Below, piece after piece: positions 1 through 7,708 of a stretch of 7,979 nucleotides of DNA. Under the pieces are notes generated by a model, which saw only the letters and a program-made list of their open reading frames with translations, was not told where the DNA came from and did no database searches. How positions within the stretch are numbered: the stretch's first letter is position 1; the number at the start of each line of letters is the position of its first letter. The DNA is from Candidatus Aenigmatarchaeota archaeon (lineage in GTDB: Archaea; Aenigmatarchaeota; Aenigmatarchaeia; CG10238-14; SpSt-28): assembly GCA_023256115.1 (NCBI GenBank), contig JAGDWU010000039.1, positions 1-7,979 of the forward strand. The letters run 5' to 3'. Position numbers and translations under genes: made by a program.

Positions 1-225
1 TCTTCCTAATGCTTTTCCTAATTCTAAGCTAGTTCCTTCAAAAACTTCAATTTTTTTAGGATCAACTAAAGCGTAAACATCTTCTTTTAAATCTTCCGGA
101 ATATTAGCTGCAATAATAACTTTTTTTGGTTCATGTAGCTTTAAATATTTAATGCATTTTCTTGCACCAAATATTGCTTTTCCCTCTTTTACTAATTCTT
201 TTATTTCGCTACTTATTTCTTTCAT
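1..225 (-). CDS. rpl30e: Ribosomal protein L30e, N-terminal 75 codons (cut by window edge)
   Basis: This is a partial gene: it starts at ATG 225-223 and stays open for 75 codons to the window edge. The family (L7Ae/L30e/S12e RNA-binding fold) acts in the large ribosomal subunit and is usually about 100 residues, so roughly a quarter is missing. Visible family features are GKAIFGARKCIKYLK (residues 15-29, the helix that is usually G-x-x-x-T-I-K-A-L), VIIAANIPEDL (36-46), and FEGTSLELGKALG (62-74), which closely matches the conserved E-G-T-S-x-E-L-G-x-A-L-G motif. The ATG overlaps the end of rpoA'' by 17 nt, and rpl30e is the standard neighbour after rpoA'' in archaeal RNA polymerase clusters. 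No clear Shine-Dalgarno sequence is visible, so translation is probably coupled to rpoA''. Identification is strong; only the 3' end is unknown. Confidence 0.93.
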   Translation of the reverse strand, partial: MKEISSEIKELVKEGKAIFGARKCIKYLKLHEPKKVIIAANIPEDLKEDVYALVDPKKIEVFEGTSLELGKALGR

Positions 226-1318
226 GATATACTAGTTTTACTCTTCCAGTTCCTATTGGTACTAAGTTTCCTATCATTAAATTTTCAAAAGGCCCTTGTA
301 GTTTATCTATTTGATTTTTAATTGCGGCATTTACTAAATGTTTTACAGTTTCTTCGAAACCGGCTTTTGCTAATACACTTTCTCTTCTGCCAGCAACACC
401 ATGCCTACCAATAGCTTGTATTTCACCAGTAAAGCACATTGCATCTGCAATTATAGACAAAAATCTTGTATCAACATCTAATCCTTGCTGTTGCAAAGTC
501 TTATAAATTTCTAATAATAATAAATGTCTTGCAGCTTCAATTCCTAATACTTCTGCTATTTCATGCGGATTATTACAATATGTTTTTGTATAATCTATTA
601 TTTCATAATTTCTTTTAAATAATTCTTTTAAGTTAGAGCCTAATGTTTGAATAACATTTTTGTTTCCTTCTTTTATTATTGTTGCTCTTTCAACTCCGCT
701 AATTCCTTTAAATGTTAATTTTTCTATTCTATCTTTTAAAATTCTTAATTGTTTGACATTATATTCTTTTTTAGGGATTAAAATAACTTTATTTTTTTGC
801 TTTTTAACTTCAAAAACTTTAAACTTTTTTTTCAATAAATTATAAAGTTCTTTAACTTTTTCTTCTTCTCCAGAAATTTCAATTGTCATTTCACTCAAAT
901 TTAAGGCTACTTGAAATTCTTCCCATATTTTTCTTTCTACTATTTCGCTTGCAATTTTGTATGCATTTTCTTCGTTATCATATTCATCTTTTAGATAAAT
1001 GTACATCATTGGAGTTGAAATTTTTTTTCTTGCATCGAACAATTCAATTAATCTCGGCAAACCTAAGGTTATTTTAAATGTTGTTCCACCAGCCAAATGA
1101 TATACTCGCATGGTTGCTTGCGTTGCAGGTTCGCTAACACTTTGAGTTGTTAATATTCCTATAGCTTCATTTGGTTCAAAACATTTACTAATCCAATTAT
1201 AATATGTTTCAATGATTATTTTTTCTTTTTCTTTTTCGCTTTTATTAGCTATTTCTTTTTCCAATTTTTCCCTTATACCTATTGGTAATGCTTTAAGATA
1301 TTCTATATAGCTGCTCAT
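209..1318 (-). CDS. rpoA2: DNA-directed RNA polymerase subunit A'' (Rpo1C)
   Basis: This is the C-terminal part of the largest RNA polymerase subunit, which archaea encode separately. It completes the active-site cleft and carries the trigger loop that closes over the incoming NTP. Counting from the upstream GTG at 1330 (373 codons), the trigger loop spans about residues 66-110: E-P-A-T-Q, then M-R-V-Y-H78 with the catalytic histidine, then TLGLPRLIELFDARK and STPMM. The C-terminal cleft domain has ADAMCFTGEIQAIGRHGVAG (296-315), SVLAKAGFEETVKHL (318-332) and IGTGRVKLVY (359-368). Length fits the family. I prefer the ATG at 1318 (369 aa), because an AGTGAT element lies 7 nt upstream and the extra N-terminal MILI is not typical. 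With this start the gene overlaps the B'-A' stop by 26 nt; with GTG it would be 38 nt. The trigger loop has some uncommon residues (see findings). Confidence 0.97.
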   Translation of the reverse strand: MSSYIEYLKALPIGIREKLEKEIANKSEKEKEKIIIETYYNWISKCFEPNEAIGILTTQSVSEPATQATMRVYHLAGGTTFKITLGLPRLIELFDARKKISTPMMYIYLKDEYDNEENAYKIASEIVERKIWEEFQVALNLSEMTIEISGEEEKVKELYNLLKKKFKVFEVKKQKNKVILIPKKEYNVKQLRILKDRIEKLTFKGISGVERATIIKEGNKNVIQTLGSNLKELFKRNYEIIDYTKTYCNNPHEIAEVLGIEAARHLLLLEIYKTLQQQGLDVDTRFLSIIADAMCFTGEIQAIGRHGVAGRRESVLAKAGFEETVKHLVNAAIKNQIDKLQGPFENLMIGNLVPIGTGRVKLVYHERNK

Positions 1319-4300
1319 AATTAAAATCACTTTCTATTTTTGTCGGATCTATTCCATCTTCACCAGCAATAAATTGAATTACGTTTCCGCTAGAATCTCT
1401 AACAGTTAAATCAAATTCAACTCTTAAATCTTGTAATGCTCCAATAAATCTTCTTTCTAGATATCCGCTTTGCCTTGTTTTAACTCCTTTATCCATTAAA
1501 CCTTCTCTGGAATTAATTGCTTCGAAATATACTTCAAATGGGTCCAAACCTTCTTTAAATCCATGAATTACAAAACCTTTTGCTCTTGCACTTATATCAT
1601 TTAATTCAAAGTGTGGAAATGTTCTTAAGTAATAACCAATTTTAATTCTTTCTCCCATAATTCTTTCTTGTCCAACCAAACCGCTAATTTGAATATAATT
1701 TATCAAGCTTCCTCTTGCTCCACTAGCAGAAATCCAAAATACTTCATTCTCTTTATTTATATTTTGTAAAATTAAATTTCCAACTTTTGTTGTTATATCG
1801 CTTATTATTCTATTTATTTCTTGTTCTACAACTTCTTCGCTAGTTCTACCAATTATTTTTTCAATTTTGCCTTTTCTAAACTTTTCAATTAATTCAAAAA
1901 TTTGTTGTTCCCCGCTTTTAATAATTTCTTCTTTTTGCTTTAACAATTCTTTACTTACTTCATAATCTTTGTAAGATATTGAAATTCCATGTTGTAATGC
2001 AATACTCATTCCTAATTTAGAAATATTTTCTATAAACTTTTTGGTATAAAATTCACCATATTCACTTAAAATTCTATTTAATAACTTTCCATTTTCACCA
2101 ACAGCTTTTTTATCTATTACTCCAGAAACCAATTTACCATTTTCAATTTTTGTTATTCCTTTTTCTTTTTCAATATTTATTAAATTGTTTTTAAATTCAA
2201 TTGAAATTTTTGGTAAGAATAGGCTAAAAATTTCTTTGCCGCTAAATTTTTCTTTTCTTGGAATCTCTATGTTTAAATCAATATTTCTAACTAATTGAAC
2301 AACATCTTTATAATTCATTTCTTCAATTTTATAAGTTAATAAGAATAAGCCTGTAATTTGATCATGCAATAAAGCAATTATTGGACCGCTATATCTTGGG
2401 CTTCTAATATGTTTGATTACGCCTGCCAATAATTCTGCTTCTGCCATTGCTTCTTTTGATTGTAAAACATGCAAATTCATTTCATCTCCATCAAAATCTG
2501 CATTGTAAGGAATTGTCGTGCAAAGATTTATCCTAAATGTTTTTCCTGGCATTACTACAACTTTATGAGCTAACATGCTCATTCTATGTAAGCTTGGTTG
2601 TCTGTTAAATAATACAACATCACCATTCAACAAATGTCTTTCAACAATCCAGCCAACATCTAACATCTCAGCTATTAAATTTTTGTTTTTTTCCATTATT
2701 TTTATTTTTGTTCCATCTGGCTTAATTACATAATTTGCACCAGGCCACTTGTCTGCATTTAAAACTAAAATCTTTAAAAATTCTTTATTTTCTTCATTTA
2801 CAACTTCTGGTACAGTTAAAATTTTTGCAAATTCTAATGGCACACCAACTTCATCTATATCTATATAAGGATCTGGGCTAATTACAGCTCTTGCAGAAAA
2901 GTTAACTCTTTTTCCTAATAAATTATATCTAAATCTTCCTTCTTTTGCTTCTAATCTTTGTACCAATCCTTTTAATACTCTTCCGCTTCTATGTCTAGCA
3001 GGCGGAACATTGCTTAACTCATTATCATAAAATGTTGCAACATGATATTGTAATAATTCGCTAAAGTCTTTTACAATAAATTCTGGAACTCCAGCTTCTA
3101 ATGCTTCTAAAAAGTTTTTATTAACTCTTAATATATCTACAAGCTTATGAGTTAAATCATCTTCACTTCTTTCACCAGTTTCCAAAACAATAGATGGTCT
3201 AATTCTTGGCGGCGGAACTAAAATTACATTTAAAATAACATGTTCTGGCCTAATTTTTATTCCAGCTTTTTCCAATTCTTCATTAGGAATTTTTGATAAA
3301 AATTCCTTTAATTCACCTTTATCAACTTCTTTTTCATCTATTTTTATTGTATAAGGTAATACTAATTCTATTTTTGGTTGTTCTTTTCCGCAGTGCGGAC
3401 ATTTACTTGGCAAACTTTTTAGCAAGCTTTTTAATGATTTCTTTTCTTTACTTAAATATTTATAACAATTCTTACAAAATGCTCTCAAAACATTATAAAC
3501 AAATCTCACAAATAGCGGATGTATTACAGGCTTAGCAAGCTCTATGTGACCAAAATGTCCAACACAAGTTACAAAATTTCCATAACAAGTTCTGCATCTA
3601 ATTCCAGGATCTATTGTTCCTAATCTCGGATCCATTAAACCACCTTCTATTGGATAACCTTCTTCATCATATAATTCAGATTTAACAATTTTTCCAATGG
3701 AATATTTCTTTATTAGTTCTGGGGTGAAAATGTTAAACTCAATTGAAATAACCTTTTTCAAATCTTTATCTACAATTAACTTTGGATAAATTAGCATAGT
3801 GTACAATTCTTGTAATAGTAATTTGAATGCATAGGACATTTCAACTTCTATAACATCTTTTCCATCTTTACAAACTGGGCAATAATACTCATTTTTAAGA
3901 TAGTTTTTCCATGCTATTAATCCACAATTTGTGCAAACTGGAACTAAGGTTTTATCGCTATCAAATCTTTCTTTTAAAGTTATTGCTGCGCCATGAGCAA
4001 TCAAAACATCCTTCTCCATTTCTCCCAATCTTAATCCACCTTCTTTTACTCTACCTTCTGTTGGTTGTCTTGTTAATAATGTAACAGGACCTCTAGCTCT
4101 AGCATGTTTCTTATTCGATGCCATATGATATAATCTCATCACAAATCCTACTCCAATTAAAATTTTTACTTCATACTTTTTTCCTGTTCTTGGATCATAC
4201 ATTTCTTCTCTTCCACTTTCTTCAAAACCATATTTTTTAAGTAATTCAACTATATATTCCTCATTAACTTTACCAAATTGTGTATCATATTCTATTTTAC

Positions 4301-5552
4301 CTTCCAAAGCACAAACTTTTCCAAAAGCAACTTCTAATAATTGGCTAATTGTCATTCTTGATGGAATAGCATGCGGATTTAAAATTAAATCTGGAACTAT
4401 TCCGCTAGCTGTAAATGGCATATCCTCTTGTCTAACTAACAATCCAATAACCCCTTTTTGTCCATGTCGAGTTGCAAATTTATCTCCAATTTCTGGTACT
4501 TTCAAATCTCTTACTATAACTTTAACATGTTTATTACCATCTTGATTTGTTGTTATATAAACTCTATCAACAACTCCTTGATCTTCATGTCTTAAAGTAA
4601 TTGAAGCGTCTCTTAAATTTTCGACTAAGAAAAACCTTTCCGGTTTACTAATAAATCTTAATGGTGCTACTTTTCCTATTAAAACGTCATTTCCTTTAAC
4701 TTCTGTCTCTAATCTAACAATTCCATCTTCATCTAAATTTTTATAAGCTTCTTCTCCTAAATAATCTTTAACTCCAGGCTGAGGAATTCCAATAATATCT
4801 TTTTGACCGCTGGGATATTTATTTTCATCAGTTTCATACGTTCTAAACATATAAGCCCAATATAATCCTCTTTCTACGCTTGATTTATTTAAAATAAATG
4901 CATCTTGCATTGCATAAGGATGTGAAACAATAGCAACAACAATATTCATACCATTTGGATGTGTATTAAATGGAAAAACTTGATAAGTTGGGGTTTGAAC
5001 TAAAGGAACTTGAGAATAAACAGAAGCATAAGAAATCGAATCGGCTCTTGTATTAAAAGCTAAATTATAAATTCCAACAGCTTGGCCACTCATTCTAGCA
5101 CCATAATTAATTCTATCTCCTCTAGCATAATTAACAAAAGGTATTAAGCTGGCATGCAATCCGAATATTATGCTTGGATGAATTTCTAAATGTGTTGTTT
5201 TTTCATTTATATCTTTTTCTGTTAATGCTATAATGGCATTTTCTTCTTCCATAGCATCTAAAAATTCTATTATTCCTTCCTTAACTAAATCAAAAAATGT
5301 TAGTTCTCCCTTTTTCAATTTTTCAATATGCTCTTTAGTGAGCAAAGGTTTACCATTTTTAACAACTATTAATGGCCTTCTAATTCTTCCGCTATCTGTT
5401 GAAATGTAAATTGAATTTTTATATGGCAAGTAACTTACGTTAACTTGATAATTTATTTTTCCACTTCTTCTTAATTCTTTTATTCTTTTTATTAATTTTT
5501 CTGGTTCATTTGTTTCTCCTAAATATTCTCCATCTAAAAATACTTTAATCAT
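1293..5552 (-). CDS. Fused RNA polymerase subunits B' and A' in one polypeptide (1419 aa)
   Basis: One uninterrupted frame carries two core subunits normally encoded by separate archaeal genes. Residues 1 to about 597 are B' (C-terminal half of the second-largest subunit): HPSIIFGLHASLIPF (125-139), the active-site GDKFATRHGQKGVIG (356-370, with K358 and K366), RARGPVTLLTRQPTEG (485-500), GGLRLGEMEKDVLIAHGAA (505-523) and a zinc ribbon (C540, C543, C558, C561). From about 598 A' begins: YPIEGGLMDPRLG (633-645), clamp zinc site C653-C656-C663-H666, second zinc site C693, C696, C718, C721, RSEDDLTHKLVDILRV (795-810), the switch/rudder region RFRYNLLGKRVNFSARAVIS (873-892), FNRQPSLHRMSMLAHK (982-997), the Mg-binding NADFDGDEMN (1017-1026, with D1019, D1021, D1023), and the bridge helix (about 1325-1370). 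The end, IQFIAGEDGIDP (1392-1403), is the usual A'/A'' split point. There is no linker, stop or frameshift at the junction. The start ATG overlaps rpoB'' by 8 nt. Both identities are near certain; whether the protein stays as one chain is unknown. Confidence 0.97.
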   Translation of the reverse strand: MIKVFLDGEYLGETNEPEKLIKRIKELRRSGKINYQVNVSYLPYKNSIYISTDSGRIRRPLIVVKNGKPLLTKEHIEKLKKGELTFFDLVKEGIIEFLDAMEEENAIIALTEKDINEKTTHLEIHPSIIFGLHASLIPFVNYARGDRINYGARMSGQAVGIYNLAFNTRADSISYASVYSQVPLVQTPTYQVFPFNTHPNGMNIVVAIVSHPYAMQDAFILNKSSVERGLYWAYMFRTYETDENKYPSGQKDIIGIPQPGVKDYLGEEAYKNLDEDGIVRLETEVKGNDVLIGKVAPLRFISKPERFFLVENLRDASITLRHEDQGVVDRVYITTNQDGNKHVKVIVRDLKVPEIGDKFATRHGQKGVIGLLVRQEDMPFTASGIVPDLILNPHAIPSRMTISQLLEVAFGKVCALEGKIEYDTQFGKVNEEYIVELLKKYGFEESGREEMYDPRTGKKYEVKILIGVGFVMRLYHMASNKKHARARGPVTLLTRQPTEGRVKEGGLRLGEMEKDVLIAHGAAITLKERFDSDKTLVPVCTNCGLIAWKNYLKNEYYCPVCKDGKDVIEVEMSYAFKLLLQELYTMLIYPKLIVDKDLKKVISIEFNIFTPELIKKYSIGKIVKSELYDEEGYPIEGGLMDPRLGTIDPGIRCRTCYGNFVTCVGHFGHIELAKPVIHPLFVRFVYNVLRAFCKNCYKYLSKEKKSLKSLLKSLPSKCPHCGKEQPKIELVLPYTIKIDEKEVDKGELKEFLSKIPNEELEKAGIKIRPEHVILNVILVPPPRIRPSIVLETGERSEDDLTHKLVDILRVNKNFLEALEAGVPEFIVKDFSELLQYHVATFYDNELSNVPPARHRSGRVLKGLVQRLEAKEGRFRYNLLGKRVNFSARAVISPDPYIDIDEVGVPLEFAKILTVPEVVNEENKEFLKILVLNADKWPGANYVIKPDGTKIKIMEKNKNLIAEMLDVGWIVERHLLNGDVVLFNRQPSLHRMSMLAHKVVVMPGKTFRINLCTTIPYNADFDGDEMNLHVLQSKEAMAEAELLAGVIKHIRSPRYSGPIIALLHDQITGLFLLTYKIEEMNYKDVVQLVRNIDLNIEIPRKEKFSGKEIFSLFLPKISIEFKNNLINIEKEKGITKIENGKLVSGVIDKKAVGENGKLLNRILSEYGEFYTKKFIENISKLGMSIALQHGISISYKDYEVSKELLKQKEEIIKSGEQQIFELIEKFRKGKIEKIIGRTSEEVVEQEINRIISDITTKVGNLILQNINKENEVFWISASGARGSLINYIQISGLVGQERIMGERIKIGYYLRTFPHFELNDISARAKGFVIHGFKEGLDPFEVYFEAINSREGLMDKGVKTRQSGYLERRFIGALQDLRVEFDLTVRDSSGNVIQFIAGEDGIDPTKIESDFNYEQLYRIS
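1326..1331 (-). promoter_or_regulatory. Candidate Shine-Dalgarno for rpoA''
   Basis: On the minus strand AGTGAT is followed by a 7-nt spacer and the ATG at 1318-1316. It resembles the archaeal GGTGAT consensus, which pairs with the 3' end of 16S rRNA. It lies inside the end of the fused B'-A' gene, and its GTG is the alternative upstream start, so it favours 1318 over 1330 as the real start. Only five of six bases fit the consensus, and the region is AT-rich, so this is moderate evidence. Confidence 0.4.
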
Positions 5553-7032
5553 GTTTTACAATTAAATCTTTTATCTGATTTTTTATTTCTTCTTTCTCTT
5601 CATCGCTAATTCCATATGTTACTTCACTAAAAATAGCCAAATATTTTCTTAATCCAATTGTTGGTCCTTCTGGTGTTTCGGCAATACAAAGCTTTCCAAA
5701 ATGAGTCGGATGCAATTCTCTTGCTTCAAAATGTTCTTGTGTAGTTTTTAATGGACTACTAACTAATCTCATATGTGTTATTGATTTATTCAAATTTATT
5801 CTTTCTAATCTTTGCGAAGTTCCAGTTCTATTGCCAATCCATGTTCCGACTGCCATTGCAGATTGAATTAAGTTTGTAACATAATTGCTTTCTATTGTTG
5901 CTTCTATTGGAGGCAATTTACCTTTTCTTGCAAATTTTTGAAAGTTTGCAATCATTCTTGCAATTACACCTTGCCTTCTTAATAAAATTGTTCTCATTAA
6001 AATTTCAAATAGTTCGCCTGCCAATCTCACTCTTTTATTCATATAATGATCTATATCATCTTCCTTTTCTTTTCCAATTGCAGTTGCAATCATTCTTTCA
6101 ACAATTTTAGCTAAAAATAAGGCTTTACTTAATCTAGCGTCTTTTGTTTGACCTAAATGCAATAAGAAATATTTATCAATTATTAGTTGGGCTCTTTGTA
6201 TTCTTAATCTTTTTTGTGGTAATTTCAAGTATTTTCCAATTTCATCTAAAGCCTCTTCTTGAGTTGCTATTGGATATTCATATAAATTAACTAAAAATTC
6301 ATTTTGTATTTCTTTATCCTTAGAAATCATTTTTAATAATAGCTCATCATTTTCAATTCCTAATGCTTTAAACAAAATAACTACAGGAAAGTTTTTAAGA
6401 GCTGTAAATGTTGTTGTTATTATACCATCTCTTTTTAGCTCAAATAATTGCTTTAAAACATATCCATCTTTTTCACTATTTATTCTACAATTTACAACAA
6501 CATTATTTGAATTTGTTTTTCTTATTATAATTCTATTTGGAGCAAGTTCCTCAAATAAAATTAATATTCTTTCAGTTCCATTTATTATAAAATATCCTCC
6601 AGGATCGTCTGGATCTTCTTTTATTTTTATTAGCTCTTCTTCACTCATTTTAGATAAAGGACATAAAACACTTTTTACCATTACAGGAAATTCTCCAAAA
6701 TAAACATTTTTTGGTTCAGATTCTGTTCCATCTATTTCAGTAATAACTTTTAAATACATCGGAACACTATAAGTTAAATTTCTTATCCTAGCTTCATATG
6801 GATAAACTTTTCTTTCAGTTCCATCTTTTTCAACTATTCTTGGATATTTTCCGAGTTCTACTCCTAAAAATTTAATTTTTACTTTTCCTACATTGGGAAT
6901 TTCTGGTTTAATTGATCCAATATTTTTTACAATTTTGCTAAATCTTTTTTTTACAAATTCGTTATAAGAATCTATTTGATACCTTACAAATCCTTTTTCT
7001 TTAATATATGCACCTAACAATTCTCGTAGCAT
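5545..7032 (-). CDS. rpoB2: DNA-directed RNA polymerase subunit B'' (Rpo2N)
   Basis: This is the N-terminal half of the second-largest RNA polymerase subunit (protrusion, lobe and fork), which pairs with B' to form the upper jaw and DNA-hybrid wall. The 495-aa length and the split point are those of organisms with a divided rpoB. Motifs in order: QIDSYNEFVKKR (19-30), EARIRNLTYSVPMYL (80-94), FPVMVKSVLCPLS (115-127), DDPGGYFIINGTERIL (142-157), DIDHYMNKRVRLAGEL (326-341), fork loop TGTSQRLERIN (403-413), and ELHPTHFGKLCIAETPEGP (439-457). The ATG at 7032 shares one base with the rpoH stop (TAATG), and the stop overlaps the B' start by 8 nt (ATGATTAA), so translation of the three genes is probably coupled. 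No Shine-Dalgarno is evident. Nothing essential looks missing. Identification is near certain. Confidence 0.97.
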   Translation of the reverse strand: MLRELLGAYIKEKGFVRYQIDSYNEFVKKRFSKIVKNIGSIKPEIPNVGKVKIKFLGVELGKYPRIVEKDGTERKVYPYEARIRNLTYSVPMYLKVITEIDGTESEPKNVYFGEFPVMVKSVLCPLSKMSEEELIKIKEDPDDPGGYFIINGTERILILFEELAPNRIIIRKTNSNNVVVNCRINSEKDGYVLKQLFELKRDGIITTTFTALKNFPVVILFKALGIENDELLLKMISKDKEIQNEFLVNLYEYPIATQEEALDEIGKYLKLPQKRLRIQRAQLIIDKYFLLHLGQTKDARLSKALFLAKIVERMIATAIGKEKEDDIDHYMNKRVRLAGELFEILMRTILLRRQGVIARMIANFQKFARKGKLPPIEATIESNYVTNLIQSAMAVGTWIGNRTGTSQRLERINLNKSITHMRLVSSPLKTTQEHFEARELHPTHFGKLCIAETPEGPTIGLRKYLAIFSEVTYGISDEEKEEIKNQIKDLIVKHD

Positions 7033-7259
7033 TATTTTTCTATAACTATTCTATAATAAATACTTTTTCTTCCAAATATATTTCTTTCTATTTCTATTAT
7101 ATCACCAACTTTTGCGTTTAACGCTTTAACCATTGGATCACTAGCTAAAATTTTTGGTAGTTGACTTTCTTTTACATTATACCTTTTTAATAATTCCTTT
7201 TTTTCTTCCTCGCTTAATATTCTGCATTTTGGTACTAAAAAATGTTTAAATATGTCCAT
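7032..7259 (-). CDS. rpoH: DNA-directed RNA polymerase subunit H (Rpo5, Rpb5-like)
   Basis: This 75-aa protein corresponds to the C-terminal assembly domain of eukaryotic Rpb5 and sits at the lower jaw of RNA polymerase near downstream DNA. Family features: H6 with LVPK (8-11), LSEEEKKELLKRYNV (15-29), LPKI (34-37), DPMVKALNAK (41-50), GD (52-53) and YYRIV (68-72). The usual LVPKH reads LVPKC. The loop between the last two strands, usually S-P-T-A-G, reads N-I-F-G-R-K. Length is normal for archaea. The gene opens the canonical H-B''-B'-A'-A'' order and overlaps rpoB'' by one base. The 23-nt leader after the upstream gene is pure A/T except for one G and has no convincing ribosome-binding site. 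A TATA-like run inside it lies too close to the ATG to serve this gene. Confidence 0.95.
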   Translation of the reverse strand: MDIFKHFLVPKCRILSEEEKKELLKRYNVKESQLPKILASDPMVKALNAKVGDIIEIERNIFGRKSIYYRIVIEK

Positions 7260-7294
7260 AATTTATCTTTTTTTATATAAATTTATCTTTTTTT
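7260..7294. repeat. 15-bp direct repeat with 20-bp period before rpoH
   Basis: AATTTATCTTTTTTT (plus strand) occurs exactly at 7260-7274 and again at 7280-7294. The second copy includes the last codons and stop of the 141-aa gene; the first copy abuts the rpoH ATG. A small tandem duplication that created the leader between the two genes would explain this. Low sequence complexity makes chance or polymerase slippage possible. No function can be assigned. Confidence 0.6.
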
Positions 7295-7708
7295 GATATA
7301 CTCTAAAAATAATTCATATACGTTTAAGTAAATGTTTCTTTTAAAATATTCTTTATAATTTTCAATTTCCTCAAATGAAGTAGCATTCAAAATTTTTTTC
7401 ATTAAATCTTTACAATATGCTTCTATCTCTTTAACTTTAGCTAAATTTATATTTGAAAATCTGGAATTTACTAGCGCAATTATTCTATCTAAAAAATCTA
7501 TAATAACAATTTTATATCCAGGAAAAAATTTTGAAGGGGAAGTTATCAATAGTTCATTCTTTAGTTTTTTTATTTGAGTTTCTATTTCTGTTACTTTAAA
7601 TTTTAACAATATATTATCACTAAAACCTTTTCTAAACCTTGAAGAATCCAGAAGCTCTTGAACTGCTTGGCAATATGAAATTATTTCTAAATCTGCTAAA
7701 TTTATCAT
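7283..7708 (-). CDS. Unrecognised 141-aa helical protein, first gene before rpoH
   Basis: I do not recognise this protein. It is cytosolic by appearance (no signal peptide or membrane segment) and rich in Lys, Ile, Leu and Glu. It reads as almost all alpha-helical: a first helix at about residues 4-21, a possible coiled coil at about 34-55 (LLKFKVTEIETQIKKLKNEL), a Pro/Gly-containing break at 58-64 (PSKFFPG), a hydrophobic helix at 66-82, a helix at 89-107, and an aromatic-rich C-terminal helix pair from about 111. Cysteines 13 and 99 are isolated, so a zinc site is unlikely. It has a TATA-like promoter 36-43 bp upstream and ends 23 nt before rpoH on the same strand, so it is probably the first gene of the RNA polymerase transcript. 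It does not resemble RpoE, F, K, L, N, P, TFS or Rpo13 to my eye. A role linked to transcription is only a guess from position. The open frame, strand and compact fit support a real gene. Confidence 0.75.
   Translation of the reverse strand: MINLADLEIISYCQAVQELLDSSRFRKGFSDNILLKFKVTEIETQIKKLKNELLITSPSKFFPGYKIVIIDFLDRIIALVNSRFSNINLAKVKEIEAYCKDLMKKILNATSFEEIENYKEYFKRNIYLNVYELFLEYIKKR

Follow-up and report, generated by a model that had tools for sequence, protein, structure and literature searches.

The joining of the two largest subunits of RNA polymerase is known from bacteria. Helicobacter and Wolinella carry an rpoB-rpoC (beta-beta') fusion that passages of PMC1557499 treat as a rare genetic event and use to unite the two, and a tethered beta-beta' enzyme of E. 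coli is reported to work in vitro (passages of PMC1750930, citing Severinov 1997). In Archaea, the joining and splitting of A' and A'' has been called rare, and the state of the A subunit has been used to argue for the archaeal root (passages of PMC5484517). Here we describe a fused rpoB'-rpoA' gene in a 7,979-nucleotide stretch of DNA from Candidatus Aenigmatarchaeota archaeon (contig JAGDWU010000039.1), the whole of which is called the window below. As in the Helicobacter and Wolinella protein, the C-terminus of the second-largest subunit is joined to the N-terminus of the largest, so that both barrels lie on one chain, but the bacterial fusion is full-length (about 2900 amino acids), whereas the archaeal one joins the half-subunit B' (or B) to the half-subunit A' and is recurrent in one order. 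Archaeal A'-A'' fusions show a similar variation in the fused or split state of the large subunit but concern the halves of one subunit, not two subunits. An archaeal B'-A' fusion is not described in the titles, abstract openings and passages of the literature covered, which includes few subscription journals.

The fused gene is a single open frame of 1419 codons that begins with ATG and has no internal stop. It encodes B' and then A', both complete, and no linker, frameshift or stop separates them; the second-largest and largest subunits are thus combined in one frame with the second subunit first. Pfam places Rpb2 domains 4-7 at residues 4-593 and Rpb1 domains 1-5 at residues 599-1400. The NCBIfam model rpoB_arch (TIGR03670) identifies residues 4-596 as an archaeal B' (813.7 bits against a cut-off of 811, profile positions 1-597 of 599) and PRK08566 identifies residues 598-1409 as an archaeal A' (1013.7 bits against a cut-off of 819, profile positions 6-865 of 883). 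The four zinc-ribbon cysteines of B' lie at residues 540-561. The translation also contains the stretches GDKFATRHGQKG of B' and YNADFDGDEMN of A', which we take to be the catalytic motifs, and one predicted chain thus carries both halves of the active-site barrel. A preliminary description, made from the DNA letters alone, had proposed these gene identities, the join and its position, the unbroken frame, the zinc ribbon and the B''/B'-A'/A'' layout, and the frame and the Pfam and NCBIfam matches bear it out throughout. B' and A' form one continuous frame, predicted to yield a single chain with both catalytic barrels, and we consider it very likely that this frame arose from adjacent genes by loss of a stop.

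Comparison with known families sets the gene apart from the bacterial fusions. PRK09603, which we take to be the Helicobacter/Wolinella beta-beta' family, gives 292.2 of 5372 bits. PRK14844 (NF011417), presumably the Wolbachia beta/beta' fusion, describes the same kind of join but at full length, and the window matches it weakly, far under the cut-off (284.6 of 4632 bits). The gene scores below the cut-off of both families. The split rpoB''/rpoB'/rpoA' genes of other DPANN archaea (L036-L039, L041, L042) share the gene order and domains of the window and are about 41-52% identical to it in each half, but in them B' and A' are separate frames, in most cases overlapping or a few bases apart.

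We looked for the same junction in related genomes. The window's genome group belongs to the Aenigmatarchaeota, by names that are the submitters'. A search of the class and one of the phylum both took in 156 genomes, of which 146 gave a match; junction regions were obtained for 136, and both halves could be read at one locus in 125, giving 126 rows. The remainder comprised 10 genomes without a match, 10 with the place of A' outside the matches listed and 11 in which no junction could be read (G006, G085 and nine of family f32). Fused B'/A' junctions occur in 21 of the 126 rows and in 14 of the 33 rows from the window's order. One genome, G121, has two polymerase sets, one fused (L066, on contig C127) and one split (L067, on contig C12). 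It is probably a mixed bin, with the fused contig misbinned, because L066 groups with G066 of family f15; this contig was counted as a row, and without it 20 of 125 are fused. Long open-frame figures from the genome matches (1390-2483 amino acids, with stops given as none) were often read-through sums and are unreliable alone. Such figures had made G025, G054 and G077 of the phylum candidates for fusion, and reading of their junctions shows them to be split.

A database search with a stretch spanning the joint returned 3333 matches, and the best 120 (one of them the window's own protein) all cover 97-100% of the query. These best 120 fall mainly into two length groups: 90 proteins of 1417-1461 amino acids, nearly all B'-A' (P0100 is instead labelled partial B), and 23 of 1910-1928 amino acids in which whole B is joined to A'. 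The other seven (810-1608 amino acids) look partial or cut. Whole B-A' fusions are also present in the genome set, in G037 (a frame of 1930 amino acids) and G039 (1920), and G066 and the fused G121 contig, both ended by contig edges, look like further examples. The organism-named proteins among the best 120 are mostly Aenigmatarchaeota or Aenigmarchaeota, with P0057 filed as Woesearchaeota and P0073 simply as archaeon. The database names shown for the fused proteins give 'subunit A'' or 'subunit B' alone, and annotation-based subunit counts may therefore be wrong for the phylum. The recurrence across the phylum and the whole B-A' fusions go beyond the preliminary description, as does a structural parallel with the Protein Data Bank (PDB) entry 3qqc_A.

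In the window the joint reads ...IYPKLIVDKD-L-KKVISIEF..., with codons GAT-TTG-AAA and Leu598 at the place of the stop. Where the two genes are separate in relatives of the order, B' ends near ...IYPK(I/L)VVKE(E/D)-stop and A' starts with M..(I/V)DKI(E/V)F, overlapping the B' stop by one or four bases or beginning at most 4 bases past it. Fused joints measure 15-19 codons from just past PK to about eight residues into A', approximately the sum of the two native tails. Within one family, G028 has GAT-TAA-ATG and G032 has GAT-AAA-ATG, the stop having given way to Lys with the start Met kept, and the GAA-GAA-ATG joint of G010 may reflect the gain of an A within an ATGA overlap of the kind found in G015. 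Of the 105 split rows, 21 have B' and A' in a common frame and 72 have them in different frames, and in 12 the first A' match is more than 60 bases from the stop; routes by stop change and by insertion or deletion are thus both open.

Several of the 21 in-frame split rows (L055, L060, L075-L091, L159, L160) have a stop directly before the start and lie one base change from fusion, and read-through in these rows would give a fused chain. In relatives of the order that keep the genes apart (e.g. L055, L093-L095, L102), the codons of the C-terminal KEE/KED of B' (AAAGAGGAA/T) also serve as a ribosome-site-like GAGG for A'.

The joint aligns without gaps to PDB 3qqc_A, a polymerase clamp bound to Spt4/5. 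This entry is one chain named for b and a' (a third name is taken as a''), and the spacing between B tail and A' head is the same as in the window. By its name it is a clamp piece engineered for crystallography, and we take it to be such a construct, whereas the window holds a natural full gene. Structure prediction gives the joint as two strands with a short turn between them. The last strand of B' would, in ordinary archaeal polymerases, lie next to the first strand of A', with the chain ends about a turn apart, and fusing the two would thus be structurally cheap. The frame probably arose from the usual adjacent genes when the stop codon between them was lost. The enzyme would then assemble from B'', B'-A', A'' and the small subunits and function as the split enzyme does; its clamp core would fold from a single chain, and B' and A' would be produced 1:1. 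We infer that the product is a single polypeptide in the cell, that its activity is normal and that the joint is neutral. The same step was probably taken many times in Aenigmatarchaeota and seldom or never reversed, and in some lineages B'' is joined as well.

Trees of the two subunits were used to count changes between the fused and split states. A careful IQ-TREE analysis of 36 rows, which omits G003 as gappy and G053 as long-branched, needs 7 changes, of which 6 are forced by well-supported branches, and rejects the fused rows as one clade (p-AU 3e-67). A quick tree of 38 rows needs 9 changes, 7 forced, and a FastTree of 133 rows (seven from outside the phylum) needs 12. Fused rows cluster on the tree (1-2 of 500 shuffles gave a count as low), so the fused state has been inherited as well as repeatedly gained. 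In a two-state model on the FastTree, the fission rate goes to zero, with a log-likelihood of -45.18 for fusion-only and -54.84 for fission-only. Under this model, the fusion would have had many independent origins in Aenigmatarchaeota. The trees are of the subunits themselves, and horizontal transfer could also have contributed. On balance we favour the view that the protein structure forms a hairpin at the B'/A' boundary, so that fusion is free and one-way. The polymerase would then have ratcheted to a single chain some ten or more independent times without return, in some lineages on to a B-A' protein of 1,910-1,930 residues, an archaeal counterpart of bacterial beta-beta'.

We also asked whether A' might still be made alone. 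Pairing energy with the tail of the 16S rRNA was calculated for the 16 bases before the A' start, taking the best of three virtual starts for fused genes and ten letters for the tail. At the window's joint, pairing is -1.7 kcal/mol, with little likeness to a ribosome site. Median pairing in the order is -3.15 kcal/mol in 14 fused rows vs -6.7 in 19 split rows (p 0.0005), and outside the order -3.9 in 7 fused vs -7.0 in 81 split rows, which include rows from outside the phylum (p 0.013). Values of -4.5 or lower occur in 5 of the 21 fused rows and in 80 of the 100 split rows (12 of 133 rows have no value). Shuffled fused sequences are also poorer in pairing; the observed value minus the shuffled one is +0.49 for fused and -1.72 for split rows (p 2e-5), and +0.82 vs -0.79 in the order alone (p 0.033). 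The start of A'' served as a control: outside the order, pairing there is strong and alike (-8.5 in 5 fused vs -7.8 in 55 split rows, p 0.45), while in the order it is hardly seen (medians -0.95 fused and -0.9 split) and the control is of little use. These comparisons are suggestive of a loss of ribosome-site-like pairing at fused joints, and only that.

Several points weigh against the readings given so far. A second A' model, TIGR02390, falls narrowly under its cut-off (994.2 vs 1042.6 bits), and confidence in the predicted structure is moderate (mean predicted local distance difference test score, pLDDT, of 72, with 95 of 386 residues below 50), the output listing strands and not strand pairs. 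Base composition accounts for part of the difference in pairing, and with kinship removed, 11 independent pairs average 5.9 in the expected direction and 0.7 in the opposite one (median sign-test p 0.125). The free and fusion-only models are equal in fit, and all trees are built from the same two subunits, with a match to species history assumed. Finally, TTG598 in the window could in principle act as an internal start. The last point bears on the reading in which, despite the fused frame, A' is made separately as well, or mainly so, through initiation at TTG598 or cutting of the long chain. TTG598 stands about where relatives start A' and would give MKKVISIEF, and an in-frame ATG, GTG or TTG is present at 11 of the 21 fused joints. 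The other 10, including those of G001 and G002 from the window's family, have no start codon; pairing at the window's joint is weak, and the joint is about as long as two native tails and so has no inserted domain, though a protease could cut elsewhere. We regard separate A' as improbable.

That an assembly or sequencing error deleted the stop or shifted the frame between two ordinary neighbouring genes might be entertained, since the window is one short draft-genome contig and damaged frames occur elsewhere in the set (G025, G028, G086). The fusion is nevertheless seen in the 21 phylum rows and in all of the best 120 of 3333 database proteins, several of which are encoded on contigs of more than 240,000 bases (up to 783,396), and G002, a genome of the same genus, is also fused and carries CTA, not TTG, at the joint. 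Because the same frame recurs in separate assemblies, neither chance nor a single assembly error explains it, and we give this account almost no weight. The preliminary description had named split genes in close relatives of high identity as evidence against the join. No such case was found: G002 (66% identity) and a database protein 88% identical to the window over the joint are both fused, and the split G003, from the same family, is about 54-56% identical and has an ATGA overlap, so the family has mixed states. A single ancient fusion in the order's ancestor, later undone many times by the return of stop and start, agrees with the clustering of the fused state and with the Leu at the old stop place in G000, G001, G002, G011, G012, G014 and G023, which could be shared descent, and change counts alone cannot separate gain from loss. 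Against it, fission-only fits worse by 9.7 log units, the Leu codons vary (TTG, TTA, CTT, CTA, CTG), and the fused genes of G032, G023 and G010 retain a Met about at the A' start of split relatives, as expected if the genes were split first. We thus judge an ancient fusion with re-splitting very unlikely and prefer repeated fusion by loss of the stop.

Genome-by-genome searches covered Aenigmatarchaeota and three other archaeal classes. In the Woesearchaeota class (G158; 378 genomes, 368 matched) and the Micrarchaeota class (G156; 295 genomes, 276 matched), every listed match to both halves has at least one stop, although a fusion split into two weaker matches could escape this reading. From these two classes, 20 suspicious long frames were fetched as possible B'-A' fusions, and none of the 20 is fused. 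In the class of G161 and L040 (44 genomes, 42 matched), the three full spanning matches each have a stop and none is a fusion. A plasmid search gave 66 records, all with identity below 60%, and the named organisms are bacterial.

Events that join or split the large subunits have been regarded as rare and have served as evolutionary markers. Within one order, at least 6-7 changes of the B'-A' state took place, and such fusion/split characters can therefore be highly homoplastic. The related fused and split enzymes provide a natural series in which the role of subunit separation in assembly could be tested, and make natural long-chain polymerases available for structural work.

Table 1. Features of the RNA polymerase cluster in the window (window positions).
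Feature	Position	Strand	Description
Fused rpoB'-rpoA' gene	1293..5552	-	1419 amino acids, roughly 160 kDa; Rpb2 domains 4-7 and, after them, Rpb1 domains 1-5 in a single open frame
B' module, residues 1-597	3762..5552	-	Rpb2 domains 4-7, C-terminal zinc ribbon; boundary set from split relatives
Joint codon TTG (Leu598)	3759..3761	-	At the B' stop-codon place of split relatives (split vs fused comparison)
A' module, residues 599-1419	1293..3758	-	Rpb1 domains 1-4 and the first part of domain 5; contains the NADFDGD loop
Separate rpoB'' (N-terminal half of B)	5545..7032	-	495 amino acids; 8-base overlap with B' start; Pfam and NCBIfam
Separate rpoA''	209..1330	-	373 amino acids, GTG start as listed; 38-base overlap with A' end; Pfam and NCBIfam
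rpoH (Rpb5 C-terminal domain)	7032..7259	-	First RNA polymerase gene of the cluster; Pfam and NCBIfam
Ribosomal protein L30e	1..225	-	Partial gene, cut by contig end; 62.3 bits vs NCBIfam cut-off 77

The window is the entire contig 18 of a draft genome of 0.62 Mb, in which the search gave a single match. Upstream of rpoH, an open reading frame of 141 amino acids (7283-7708, minus strand) matches nothing in Pfam or NCBIfam and has no credible counterpart among the other loci compared (best E 0.92). Among draft genomes of the set, B'', B' or A' is interrupted by a frameshift or stop in L060 (G028), L061 (G025) and L116 (G086), where the broken frames are probably sequence errors. The nine genomes of family f32 (L171-L179) have no B' upstream of A' within the stretch examined and a short A' (open frames of 795-811 amino acids), and their polymerase cluster has probably been broken up. 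Another joining of the same parts is seen in L074 (G082) and in the class of G161 (e.g. L040), where A' and A'' share one frame and B and A' are apart. The A'' gene of the window has no intein. Genes for A'' of 823-848 amino acids with an intein (Intein_splicing and LAGLIDADG_3) were identified at L054:1822-4368, L112:995-3526 and L068:432-2903, and A'' frames of 836-923 amino acids in L042, L073, L080 and L083 show a similar gap in the match.
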